Assembly: GCF_000337095.1 (NCBI RefSeq)
Contig: NZ_AOIV01000004.1
Location: 83,021-147,020, forward strand
Direction of reading: 5' to 3'
From: Halogeometricum pallidum JCM 14848
Lineage (GTDB): Archaea > Halobacteriota > Halobacteria > Halobacteriales > Haloferacaceae
Length of the DNA stretch: 64,000 bases
Below the pieces are notes generated by a model, which worked only from the letters and a program-made list of their open reading frames with translations, was not told where the DNA came from and searched no databases. Each line of letters opens with the position of its first letter. The stretch's first letter is position 1. Below, piece by piece: positions 39,294 to 43,958 of this stretch. The translations under genes were made by a program, and so were the position numbers.

Positions 39294-40328
39294 ATGAGTC
39301 AAGACGCGACCACCGAGGGGGACCTCAGAAACACCGGGATGTCGCTGCGGCACGACCGGGAGTGGGACTACGAACTCGAACGCATCGTTGAGGAAGTCGA
39401 AGAACGGGACGCGAACCGTGTCGGCCTCCAGTTCCCCGAGGGACTGAAGCGCCGCGGTCCGGCCGTCGCCGACGACCTGCGCGAACTGTGCGGCGACGAC
39501 GTGACGTTCATGCTGTCGGGACAGCCCTGTTACGGCGCCTGCGACCTCGACACCTACCTGATGCGACGGACGGACGTGTTCGTCCACTTCGGCCACTCGC
39601 CGATGAAGGAGTCGGACAAGATCATCTATGTGCCGCTGTTCTCGAACGTCGACCCGATGCCCATCCTGGAGGACTCCCTCGAGGAACTCGACGGCGAGGA
39701 GGTCGGTCTCGTGACGACCGCCCAGCACATGAACCGCTTCGAGGACATGGCCGACTGGCTCGAAGAGCGCGGCTACGACGTCCACACCCGCCGCGGCGAC
39801 GACCGCCTGACGTACGAGGGTCAGGTGTTGGGCTGCAACTACGCCTCCGCCGACATCGACGCCGACCAGGTGCTGTACGTCGGCGGCGGGAAGTTCCACC
39901 CGCTCGGATTGGCGATGGAGCACCCCGACAAGACCGTCGTCATCGCCGACCCCGTCAACAACGTCGTGAAGATAGCCGACACGGAGCAGTTCATGAAACA
40001 GCGCTACGCCTCCGTCCACAAGGCGATGGACGCCGAGAAGTGGGGCGTCATCTTCTGTACGAAGATCGGACAGGGTCGAATGGAGATAGCCGAGAAGATC
40101 ATCGAGGACAACCCGAACGCCTACCTCATCACGATGGACGAAGTGACGCCCGACCGCCTCCGAAACTTCGACATGGACGCGTTCGTCAACACGGGCTGTC
40201 CGCGAATCACCACCGACGACGGCCCGCGCTTCCACAAGCCGATGCTGACGCCGGGCGAGTACCGCATCGCCGTCGGCGACAAACCGCTCGACTCGCTGGA
40301 GTTCGACACGTTCCACGGCACCTGGTAG
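39294..40328 (+). CDS. dph2: Diphthamide biosynthesis enzyme Dph2
   Basis: Dph2 transfers a 3-amino-3-carboxypropyl group from AdoMet to a His of elongation factor 2, the first step of diphthamide synthesis, by a radical mechanism. Three Cys ligands of the 4Fe-4S cluster are visible: GQPCYGAC (near 77), VLGCNYA (near 180) and VNTGCPRI (near 300). Archaeal-specific segments are NRVGLQFPEGLKRRG and HFGHSPMKESDKIIYVP. The 344 residues match the archaeal homodimeric enzyme. AGAGGT nine bases before ATG 39294 is a possible ribosome binding site. The AdoMet donor comes from the synthetase at 24727-25932. Confidence 0.94.
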   Translation: MSQDATTEGDLRNTGMSLRHDREWDYELERIVEEVEERDANRVGLQFPEGLKRRGPAVADDLRELCGDDVTFMLSGQPCYGACDLDTYLMRRTDVFVHFGHSPMKESDKIIYVPLFSNVDPMPILEDSLEELDGEEVGLVTTAQHMNRFEDMADWLEERGYDVHTRRGDDRLTYEGQVLGCNYASADIDADQVLYVGGGKFHPLGLAMEHPDKTVVIADPVNNVVKIADTEQFMKQRYASVHKAMDAEKWGVIFCTKIGQGRMEIAEKIIEDNPNAYLITMDEVTPDRLRNFDMDAFVNTGCPRITTDDGPRFHKPMLTPGEYRIAVGDKPLDSLEFDTFHGTW

Positions 40329-40458
40329 GCGGTTCCTCCCCGTCGTCCGCCGTCTCTCTTTCGTTTCTTCTCTCCGTTGCTTCCGAACGTGACGTTCGTC
40401 CAACTCTCCGACGTAAAGCACGACGCGACGGCCGGTATCGGACTCCTAACTCGCGTTC

Positions 40459-40905
40459 TCAGACGCCTAACTCCGATTCGACGTATCGAACCGCCTCCTC
40501 GGGCGTCTCGCACGCTTTCACGCCCGGCACGTCGTGCGTGTCTAATCCGGCGATTGGGCGGTCGAACACGAGCGAGAAACCCACCTCCGTGAGCGTCCCG
40601 TCCGCGCCGTCGATGGCGATAACGGCATCGCCGTTCATGACGACGAGTCCGTTCCGCGCGTGACCGAGGCCCGTGGCGACGGGGACGTCGACGTACTCGT
40701 TCGCGTCCGCGCGTCGCTCCGTGGGGAGGATGCCGACGGTGTCGCCGCCGACTTCCTTCGCGCCGCGGCAGGCCGCCTCCATCACGCCGCCGAGGCCGCC
40801 GCAGACGACGGTGTGACCCTGTTGGGCGACGAGGCGGCCGGTGTCGGCGGCCGTCTCTCTGGTCTCCTCTCCGACCGTGCCGCCGCCGATGATACTGACT
40901 CGCAT
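40459..40905 (-). CDS. TIGR00725-family (LOG-like Rossmann) protein
   Basis: This is a 148-residue Rossmann-fold protein of the TIGR00725 family, related to LOG/lysine-decarboxylase-like nucleotide hydrolases. Visible signatures: VSIIGGGTVGEETRE at the start, VVCGGLGGVMEAACRGAKEVGGDTVG near 35, ARNGLVVMNGDAVIAIDGADGTLTEVGFSL near 83 in place of the PGGxGTxxE motif. The substitution DGADGTLTE means cytokinin-type phosphohydrolase activity is uncertain. It is convergent with dph2 and separate from the next small gene. The start is ATG at 40905. Confidence 0.85.
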   Translation of the reverse strand: MRVSIIGGGTVGEETRETAADTGRLVAQQGHTVVCGGLGGVMEAACRGAKEVGGDTVGILPTERRADANEYVDVPVATGLGHARNGLVVMNGDAVIAIDGADGTLTEVGFSLVFDRPIAGLDTHDVPGVKACETPEEAVRYVESELGV

Positions 40906-41023
40906 ACTGTTTGGTCGTGGCCGTCGCTGGTACGCGTTTCGTCCGTGAAAACGGACCGAGAAATCGGTCGTCGTCGAGGGCGGTTGATTCGACTGTGGGG
41001 GACGGGCGGCGCGCCGTGCGGGT

Positions 41024-41128
41024 TCAGTCCAAGTCGGAGGCCGGAGGTTCCGGCTCCCAACTTCCGAGCAGGCGCATCGTCTCGTCCATCTGCGAGAAGT
41101 CGGCCGTCTGTCTGCGATGAACTGACAT
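41024..41128 (-). CDS. 34-residue small protein with its own promoter
   Basis: An ATG at 41128 opens 34 codons: MSVHRRQTADFSQMDETMRL, then LGSWEPEPPASDLD, ending in TGA. The first residues are basic and the C-terminal half is acidic and Pro-rich, with one Trp. Codon use is haloarchaeal. A TATA box, read on this strand as CTATATAT at about 41162-41155, lies 27-34 bases upstream and fits a leaderless transcript. The reading frame is too short for most gene callers. No family is recognised and there is no signal peptide. It may be a small regulatory protein. Confidence 0.62.
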   Translation of the reverse strand: MSVHRRQTADFSQMDETMRLLGSWEPEPPASDLD

Positions 41129-41154
41129 AACGTACTATCAAACGCCGGTGGATG

Positions 41155-41162
41155 ATATATAG
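41155..41162 (-). promoter_or_regulatory. TATA box of the 34-residue gene
   Basis: Read on the minus strand the element is CTATATAT, 27-34 bases before the ATG at 41128. No other gene starts on this strand nearby, so it most likely serves the small gene. Confidence 0.5.
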
Positions 41163-41443
41163 CTTATGCCGGATATTAGTTCGCTAACGTGTAGCAGTGA
41201 GTAGATTCCCTATTCGTATGTAGGTTATATAGTACCTAATCGGTACGTTCGTTGTTTTCTTTCGTGAGGGTTACGCCTCCCCCCAACGCGCGAAACGAGG
41301 GGCAAGCGAGTCACGGCCATCGGGTCGGCGGCCCGAAGCGTTCGTCTTTGTTTCGTACCTCGGGAGTATGAATCCGCACCCCTACATAGTTTGGTTCGCC
41401 GGGGTCCGCAACACTTAGTCCCCGCCCGGACGCACGCACGGGC
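41163..41443. other. Intergenic region with a second A+T-rich patch
   Basis: Between the small gene and the MBL gene lies about 280 bases. A second TATA-like run (GGTTATATAG, 41223-41232) is followed by GTACC-TAATC-GGTAC, an inverted repeat at 41232-41246. It points along the plus strand about 200 bases before the MBL gene, so a long leader or short RNA could exist. CACTTAG near 41413 is a nearer candidate promoter for the MBL gene. Nothing else recognisable. Confidence 0.35.
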
Positions 41444-42277
41444 ATGAGCGTCAGCGACTGGGGCGATTGGGTCCCGCGCGCCGTCGAGGCGGCGTCGCCG
41501 GACACCGTCGCCGCCTGGTATCTCGGCTGCAACGGCTTCTTCCTGAAGGGCAGCGAGGGGACGACCGTCGCCATCGACCCGTACGTCGGCCTGGGCGACC
41601 CGCCGCGGACCGTCCGCATGATTCCGGTGCCGTTCGACCCCGACGACGTCGAGGAGATGGACGCGGTCCTCGCGACCCACGAGCACACCGACCATGTCCA
41701 CGGGCCGAGTCAGGCGCCCATCCTCGAATCGACCGGCGCGCAGTACTACGCGCCGGACGACTCCCTGGACGTGGCGTTCGAGGACGAGGCGTGGTTGGAC
41801 GAGTACGACCTCTCGGAGGAGCAGTTCACCGAGGTCGCGGAGGACGACACTTTCGAGGTCGGAGAGTTCACGATTCACGTCGAGTTCTCCCACGACCCCG
41901 ACTCAACGCACCCCGTCTCCTACGTCATCGAGCACGAGTCGGGGACGTTCTTCCACGGCGGCGACACCAAACCGCACGAGGACTTCGACGAACTCGCCGA
42001 GGCGTACGACATCGACGTCGGCGTCCTCGCCTTCGGCGCGGTCGGTAACATCGACGACAAGGAGACGGGCGAGCCTCAGCGGACGAAGTGGTACTCCACG
42101 GAGAACGAGGTGGTGAAGGCCGCTTCCGACCTGCAGTTCGACCGTCTCGTTCCGACTCACTGGGACATGTGGAAGGGCCTGACCGCCGACCCGACCGTGC
42201 TCCACCACCACGCGAAGAGCTACGACCACCCCGAACGGCTCGATATCGTGGAGATAGGCGACCGCGTGGACCTGTAG
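41444..42277 (+). CDS. Metallo-beta-lactamase-fold hydrolase (UlaG-like)
   Basis: This is a 277-residue MBL-fold enzyme. Metal ligands: the THEHTDHVHGP motif near residue 85 (HxHxDH), HDPDSTHP with a His near 150, HGGDTKPHED near 170 and THWDMWKG near 240. The layout resembles the UlaG/ascorbate-6-phosphate lactonase group of small-molecule phosphodiesterases/lactonases, and the family usually binds two metal ions. GCNGFFLKGSEGTTVAIDPYVGLGDPP is the N-terminal strand pattern. The substrate is unknown. The start is ATG 41444, about 27 bases after CACTTAG. Confidence 0.85.
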   Translation: MSVSDWGDWVPRAVEAASPDTVAAWYLGCNGFFLKGSEGTTVAIDPYVGLGDPPRTVRMIPVPFDPDDVEEMDAVLATHEHTDHVHGPSQAPILESTGAQYYAPDDSLDVAFEDEAWLDEYDLSEEQFTEVAEDDTFEVGEFTIHVEFSHDPDSTHPVSYVIEHESGTFFHGGDTKPHEDFDELAEAYDIDVGVLAFGAVGNIDDKETGEPQRTKWYSTENEVVKAASDLQFDRLVPTHWDMWKGLTADPTVLHHHAKSYDHPERLDIVEIGDRVDL

Positions 42278-42344
42278 CACTCCCTTTCTCAGATCTCATA
42301 TTTTCCCCGGTTGTTTTATGTCATCTCTTCTGGTAGGAGGGGTC

Positions 42345-43958
42345 ATGAGTCGTGAGTCCGATGTGGGGGAACCGGTGTCCGTCTCCAATGGAGACGTGCA
42401 GGTGGAGAAGTCATTCGTCGCCGACGAGTTCCCGGTACCCGCCATCAAGTTCCGAATCACCTCGAACAGCGAGGAGTCCGAGCATATCCGTATCGTCGAT
42501 CAGATTCCCGAAGAGTTCCCGATGGAGGGCGTCGGGTTCCACCCGGAGTACGAGAGCGACAACTGGGCGGCGTACAAAGACCACCGCGTCGAGTACGAGC
42601 GAACGCTCGAACCGAACGAGGAGGTGATCACCGTCTACGGCGTCCGACTCGACGAACTGAGCGAGGCCGAGGCGTTCCTCGTCGACCCCGTCCTCGAACG
42701 ACCGCCCGTCCCCGAGGAGGGCGAGGAACCGGGCGACGGCGGCGTCGAGGACATCCTCGGCGAGGACCGAAGCCAACTCGTCCGCGACGCCCTTCAGGGG
42801 CACGGGAGTCTCGCCGACGAGGAGGACCGAGAGACCGTCGAAGCCACTGTCAGCGACGCCGAAAGCGGGGTTCCGGAGGCCGAGTCGACGGCGTCCGCGT
42901 CGGCCTCCGCTTCGGACGTGGAGGCGGCCCTCGATGAACGAGAGGAGGAAATGGCTGACCCCGCGGCCGCCGGCGTCGCCCCGCGGGAACTCACCGCCGA
43001 ATCGACGCCCGCGATAACGCGCGTGTCGAACCCCGAGGTCGACGTTGCGGTCGAGACGCCCGCGGATACGGCGGACGAGACGGTCGACGACGAAGCGGCC
43101 GACGACTACGTCGACCTCGAGGCGTCGGTGGGTGAGGAAGCGGCCGAGGACATCGATGCTGACGCGACGGCCCCCTCCGGTGGCGCGGCGTCGGGGTCGT
43201 TCGCGGCCGGTCTGGCGGCCGAACTGCGGGCGGGCGAGGTGTCCGACGAGGACCTCGACCTCCTCCGCTCGGAACTCGACTTCGGCCTGCCGCGCAGCGC
43301 CGACGTCCGCATCCACCGGCTTCAGGCCCAGATGGACGACCTGCAGGCGTACAGCGACGCGCTCGCGGAGTTCATCGACGAGGAGGGCACCGGTCAGGAC
43401 CTCGTCGACGGCCTGCGGCGCGAAGTGGAGGCGCTGAACGAGGAGATAGACACGTTCAGCGATAATCTCACCGCCCTCGACGCCGAGGTGACCGCGGCCG
43501 ACGCCGACCGCGACGACATCCGCGAGGGCGTCTCGACCCTCGAAGGCGACGTCTCGGCTCTCGACCAACGCGTCGAGGACGCCGCTTCGCGCCTCTCGGA
43601 CGTCGACGACCGGGCGACCGAGGCCGTCGCGGGCGTCGAGGAACTGAGCGCGACGCTGGACGAGGAGATGGAGACGGTCCACGCCGATGTCGAGGAACTG
43701 TCGGACGACCTGAGCCAGACCGCCTCCGCGACGGCCGGACTGGACGAGGAACTCGGCGACGTGCGCGAGGACATCGCCGAACTCGACGGAGACGTGGTCT
43801 CCGCGCGCGAGTCGCTGGAGGGCGATATCGACGACTTGCGTTCGGAACTCGAAGAACTGGACGAGGTGAAATCCCGCGTCGACAGCATCGAGGACGACAT
43901 CGAGGTGCTGATGGCGTTCCGCGAGCGGTTGAACGACGCGTTCGGGTCCGGCGAGTAA
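42345..43958 (+). CDS. Acidic coiled-coil protein
   Basis: This is a 537-residue acidic, soluble protein. Residues about 1-115 form a globular domain of beta character (VEKSFVADEFPVPAIKFRIT, EHIRIVDQIPEEFPMEGVGF). Then an Asp/Glu/Ala-rich disordered region (115-290), and from about residue 315 to the end a long coiled-coil (DDLQAYSDALAEFIDEE, TLEGDVSALDQRVEDAASRL, and so on). The N-terminal part resembles a domain used in membrane-linked archaeal proteins, but no catalytic motif is visible. GGAGGGG precedes ATG 42345 at ribosome-binding distance, an uncommonly strong Shine-Dalgarno for this genome. Possible role: structural or segregation. Confidence 0.75.
   Translation: MSRESDVGEPVSVSNGDVQVEKSFVADEFPVPAIKFRITSNSEESEHIRIVDQIPEEFPMEGVGFHPEYESDNWAAYKDHRVEYERTLEPNEEVITVYGVRLDELSEAEAFLVDPVLERPPVPEEGEEPGDGGVEDILGEDRSQLVRDALQGHGSLADEEDRETVEATVSDAESGVPEAESTASASASASDVEAALDEREEEMADPAAAGVAPRELTAESTPAITRVSNPEVDVAVETPADTADETVDDEAADDYVDLEASVGEEAAEDIDADATAPSGGAASGSFAAGLAAELRAGEVSDEDLDLLRSELDFGLPRSADVRIHRLQAQMDDLQAYSDALAEFIDEEGTGQDLVDGLRREVEALNEEIDTFSDNLTALDAEVTAADADRDDIREGVSTLEGDVSALDQRVEDAASRLSDVDDRATEAVAGVEELSATLDEEMETVHADVEELSDDLSQTASATAGLDEELGDVREDIAELDGDVVSARESLEGDIDDLRSELEELDEVKSRVDSIEDDIEVLMAFRERLNDAFGSGE

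Follow-up and report, generated by a model that had tools for sequence, protein, structure and literature searches.

The least-known part of archaeal proteomes consists of very small proteins, and most candidates for this class are weakly supported. The locus considered here lies in a 64,000-nucleotide stretch of the genome of Halogeometricum pallidum JCM 14848 (henceforth the window), and it poses two questions: does a reading frame of only 34 codons encode a protein, and, if so, what might such a protein do? A preliminary description of the window had claimed a 34-residue frame beginning with ATG, a TATA box at the distance typical of leaderless genes, and room of its own between a TIGR00725 gene and an MBL gene. 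The layout agrees with this account on every point: the coordinates are exact, the strand, which had not been given, is minus, and the frame is separated by 118 bp from the TIGR00725 gene and by 315 bp from the MBL gene. We term the frame and its homologues type A. The features of the locus are:

41024..41128, minus strand: type A microprotein gene, 34 codons plus TGA, product MSVHRRQTADFSQMDETMRLLGSWEPEPPASDLD, recognized from sequence, conservation and selection
41156..41161, minus strand: TATA box TATATA, at -33 to -28 from the A of the ATG
40905 to 40459, minus strand: downstream co-directional gene of the TIGR00725 / SLOG cluster 4 family, 148 aa
41444..42277, plus strand: divergent neighbour, a UlaG-like MBL-fold hydrolase, 277 aa, Pfam PF12706 at E 3.7e-21

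The start codon occupies 41128-41126 and the stop codon 41026-41024, and the conserved core of the product, RQTADFSQMDETMR, spans residues 6-19; reading 41024-41128 on the plus strand gives a different peptide and not the type A protein. The length and the start codon by themselves are at chance level, with 48 ORFs of at least 25 aa overlapping the surrounding 4.5 kb, and the significance of the frame comes from its conservation.

A tblastn search with the 34 residues recovered matches in 36 of 170 whole genomes of the same family, with E values from 2e-18 in the same genus to 0.07, and an internal stop was seen only in the weakest match. Profile searches extended the full-length members to 39 species in five genera of the Haloferacaceae: g1 (5/5 species), g9 (15/15), g15 (2/2), g19 (13/17) and g26 (4/4), of which a pattern scan of named genomes labelled g1 as the Halogeometricum group, g9 as Haloferax and g19 as Halobellus. 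All these members start with ATG and keep the same frame open; their length is 32-49 aa, nearly all falling between 33 and 40. Five residues, namely T8, A9, F11, M14 and R19, are invariant across the 39 species, and the invariant T, A, F and R are each encoded by two to three synonymous codons.

The pattern of substitution is likewise that of a coding sequence. The pN/pS ratio is 0.22 in the Halogeometricum group, 0.38 in Haloferax, 0.47 in Halobellus and 0.34 in g26, as against about 1.0 in column-shuffled alignments, among which the observed value was reached in 0/1000, 0/200, 0/200 and 2/1000 cases, respectively; the two shifted frames of the same strand gave 0.75-3.4. Within genera, DNA identity is 81-89% inside the ORF as opposed to 40-55% over the 50 bases past the stop. 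At the level of RNA, no compensatory changes were seen among the 38 base pairs predicted in five close species, and a scan of 39500-42600 with the Rfam 15 covariance models returned no match up to E 1. Given the frame-specific selection, the drop in identity past the stop and the absence of compensatory pairs and Rfam matches, the conserved unit is therefore the protein product. When the conservation test suggested in the preliminary description (tblastn and dN/dS) was run, the frame proved to be kept open in all 39 species, with pN/pS values of 0.22-0.47 in the four genera tested, so that the coding reading withstood the check. On these comparisons the type A ORF, as far as its coding capacity alone is concerned, is almost certainly a real protein-coding gene.

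Its distribution is narrow. Several genera of the Haloferacaceae have no detectable copy, and there are no supported homologues beyond the family, with no confident match of microprotein size outside it in a sample of about 390 genomes from the order; hence haloarchaea at large do not depend on type A. Weak profile matches outside the family were mostly partial and lay within long frames, and were left out of the counts. Also set aside were matches of the DNA pattern in five unrelated bacterial records (Verrucomicrobia, two Clostridia, Myxococcales and Arthrobacter), none of which encodes the core in a short ORF beginning with ATG, and a single weak match among plasmid records (Methylorubrum, E 1), taken as chance.

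The claim of a clear promoter is strengthened by comparison. The best match to the element AAGATATTTA starts between -33 and -37 in 37 of the 39 species, and exactly at -37 in 26 of them, so that the spacing from the TATA box to the ATG is a conserved trait. The 20 bases around this element are 72-83% identical, whereas the stretch from the element to the ATG is 42-56% identical. Such a layout points to a transcript that would be leaderless or carry a leader of 0-6 nt, transcription itself being a prediction; both the BRE/TATA architecture and the leaderless class have been described in a dRNA-seq study of H. volcanii (PMC4983044). Directly upstream of the TATA box lies a further element:

41163..41188, minus strand: conserved block GTTAGCGAACTAATATCCGGCATAAG, putative BRE and regulator site

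In the five species of the Halogeometricum group the mean pairwise identity is 77% at -75..-45, 83% at -45..-25 and 56% at -25..0, and the block GTTAGC(A/G)AACTAATA..CGGCATAAG abuts the TATA box on its upstream side. The corresponding block differs between genera. Conservation at this position suggests that the type A gene is regulated. Across 41163-41260, past the TATA box, the Halogeometricum group keeps additional intergenic blocks (TAGG..CTCTATAACCTACATACG; also GTTAGCAAACTAATA), and among what is conserved there is a TATA-like element oriented towards the MBL gene. Ahead of that gene lies:

41411..41418, plus strand: ACACTTAG, probably the MBL gene's own TATA element, lying 26-33 bases ahead of the ATG as seen in the sequence

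On the opposite strand, CTAAGTGTTGC is invariant in five species.

Weak profile matches in the same genomes revealed a second kind of microprotein, type B, comprising short near-leaderless ORFs of the form MIV[VA]...RRTATFAEMxxAMR, 33-37 aa long in most species and preceded by a TATA promoter. The copy in the genome of the window was found by a scan with the core pattern:

G000:C1:24694-24792, minus strand: type B microprotein

Type B genes either precede the EF-1A gene by 98-421 bp with the same orientation, or diverge from gcvT, or do both; examples near EF-1A / gcvT come from many Haloferacaceae (L096, L093, L099, L103, L130, L140 and others). The two types are alike in being tiny ORFs restricted to the Haloferacaceae, with a near-leaderless TATA promoter and the core RRTATFxxMxxxMR, but they differ in other respects: the core is C-terminal in type B and near the N terminus in type A, and type B begins with MIV[VA], has no W-x-P tail and occupies the gcvT / EF-1A locus. 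All that they have in common is the core R-x-T-A-x-F-x-x-M-x-x-x-M-R, and the hhalign comparison of the two types (probability 95.6, E 1.2e-8) extends over 19 columns only, a result that would fit common ancestry of the types as well as convergence on a short motif. Within the core T, A, F and M are invariant in 31 aligned members. The core DNA pattern has three matches in the genome of the window, namely type A, type B and one (G000:C5) inside an unrelated frame of 119 codons, which we take as chance; a reversed control pattern had no match in 60 genomes of relatives. When 372 genomes of the order were searched with a profile of the core alone, confident members came from the Haloferacaceae only, and no viral contig contained either core pattern.

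The start codon of type B often falls within an inverted repeat (L086, L099, L109, L151; TTACTATGAAGATAGTAA in L109 and TTACTATGAGCGTAGTAA in L151), which looks like a putative repressor site at the transcription start. A search by eye for an operator common to both types was negative, this palindrome being absent from type A.

Types A and B are undescribed in the databases and literature searched (Pfam, NCBIfam and the text of papers). Neither Pfam nor NCBIfam yielded a family for members of either type up to E 10, a PDB search with type A gave short chance matches only (E 0.7 and above), and a search for the core peptides in the running text of papers found nothing relevant to either type. 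The C(P)XCG zinc-finger micro-proteins of Haloferax volcanii (PMC10716476, PMC11241148) are likewise haloarchaeal and shorter than 70 aa, but they carry two C(P)XCG motifs, whereas type A of the window is devoid of cysteine and its Haloferax homologues have one at most and no pair of zinc-binding motifs. Novel small proteins have also been detected by mass spectrometry within sRNAs of H. volcanii, such as the 40-aa product of sRNA_80 (PMC12482152), which is similarly chromosomal, starts with ATG and matches the Haloferax type A homologue in length. It is probably another gene, since the stop codon of sRNA_80 is TAG and that of type A is TGA in each of the 15 Haloferax species examined, H. volcanii not being recognized among these. 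The same study reports sRNA_61, a very abundant chromosomal RNA of 111 nt with ribosome occupancy and an open stretch of 32 aa, from which no product was detected. As conserved very short genes were sought and added in H. volcanii (PMC4983044), the Haloferax copy of type A may already have a locus tag as a hypothetical protein.

What could so small a protein do? In an AlphaFold2 model of type A (mean pLDDT 75, pTM 0.29) the only structured element is a helix at residues 12-22, the rest being open chain, and the invariant residues fall in this helix and just before it. Two proteins that differ in flanks, order and neighbours thus carry one and the same core, and the simplest explanation is that the core is a docking element for a common partner. 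Since type B has it at another locus and between other flanks, both types probably share this partner, and the neighbouring gene probably does not encode it. We therefore favour the following mechanism. Type A would be a stand-alone gene for a soluble microprotein of 34 residues, read as a leaderless mRNA (0-6 nt leader) from a TATA box of its own and probably controlled by a regulator bound just upstream of that box. The protein would, with less certainty, be mostly unstructured, and the core R-x-T-A-x-F-S-x-M-x-x-T-M-R would form a short amphipathic helix with F, M and M on one face and an R at either end; this helix would fit into a groove on a larger protein, its partner, and modulate that protein. 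Taken as a whole, from the stand-alone near-leaderless gene to the helix docking on a partner common to both types, we regard this statement as about evenly poised between right and wrong; the partner and the docking step in particular we infer from the sharing of the motif and one model of low pTM.

Other readings of the locus can be considered, of which binding to the MBL protein, a leader peptide of the TIGR00725 gene and a non-coding RNA are all weaker than the docking model. In the first, type A acts on the divergent MBL-fold hydrolase as its inhibitor, activator or local regulator, and the divergent pair is a functional unit. Halogeometricum, Haloferax, g15 and Halobellus do have type A upstream of the MBL-fold gene in divergent orientation, and a search anchored on the MBL gene found relatives with a shorter motif at the same place in g12 (e.g. 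MQTSTRRTADFAEMHRAMQMAAGAVADGASRELFGG) and g8 (MTEQRSTANFAAMRRSVSESVPTFDANGLSGLRAE), where the spacing of a TATA-like box is also similar, bringing the genera with this arrangement to six. However, of 40 genomes drawn from across the order 38 contain the MBL gene, and outside the listed genera nearly all of these have no such upstream ORF, indicating that the pair is not obligate. Moreover, in g23 (L061, L087, L152) the short ORFs bearing the core (RRERQTAGFGEMAATMSRAV..., MTRNRQTAGFGEMATTMTEAV...) adjoin an aldo-keto-reductase-like gene in place of the MBL gene, and the same core recurs in type B at gcvT / EF-1A. We thus consider a dedicated role in MBL regulation unlikely, even if it is the alternative that survives best.

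Downstream, the Halogeometricum group, Haloferax, g15 and g26 all have the TIGR00725 gene in the same orientation, with a spacer of 118 bp in the window, an order that would also fit a leader peptide (uORF) controlling that gene from within one transcript. Yet Halobellus keeps the microprotein with no TIGR00725 match within 1.5 kb, in the Haloferax sequence a TATA-like GCACTTATC immediately precedes the next ATG, which would suggest a separate promoter for that gene, and the conservation of amino acids across the entire core exceeds the usual need of a leader peptide, all of which makes this explanation improbable. Still less credence attaches to a small regulatory RNA carrying a spurious ORF: haloarchaeal intergenic transcripts that are occupied by ribosomes but give no product do exist (PMC12482152), but codon-level selection in four genera, the retention of frame and stop, and the negative Rfam and base-pairing results largely refute it, a combined role of the locus as RNA and protein being possible. 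That the frame is a chance ORF near a TATA-like sequence, as the abundance of ORFs of similar size in this GC-rich DNA might suggest, is refuted by its retention in 39 species, by E values down to 2e-18 in other genomes and by purifying selection, leaving it next to no credibility.

Returning to the docking model, a broader version of it may be entertained tentatively, although we think it rather unlikely: the two types would belong to a superfamily of leaderless microproteins specific to the Haloferacaceae lineage and built around one docking helix (RxTAxFxxMxxxMR), whose MBL-side and gcvT / EF-1A-side members bind the same central partner and so make up a regulatory module, perhaps one that tunes translation. 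Irrespective of this, the selection that acts on this frame in four genera, together with the conservation of promoter and neighbour, makes type A a safe target for study. Haloferax, a genus with a genetic model species, keeps type A in 15 of the 15 species found, and the core common to type A and the EF-1A-side type B offers one conserved peptide that could be used as bait for the common partner.
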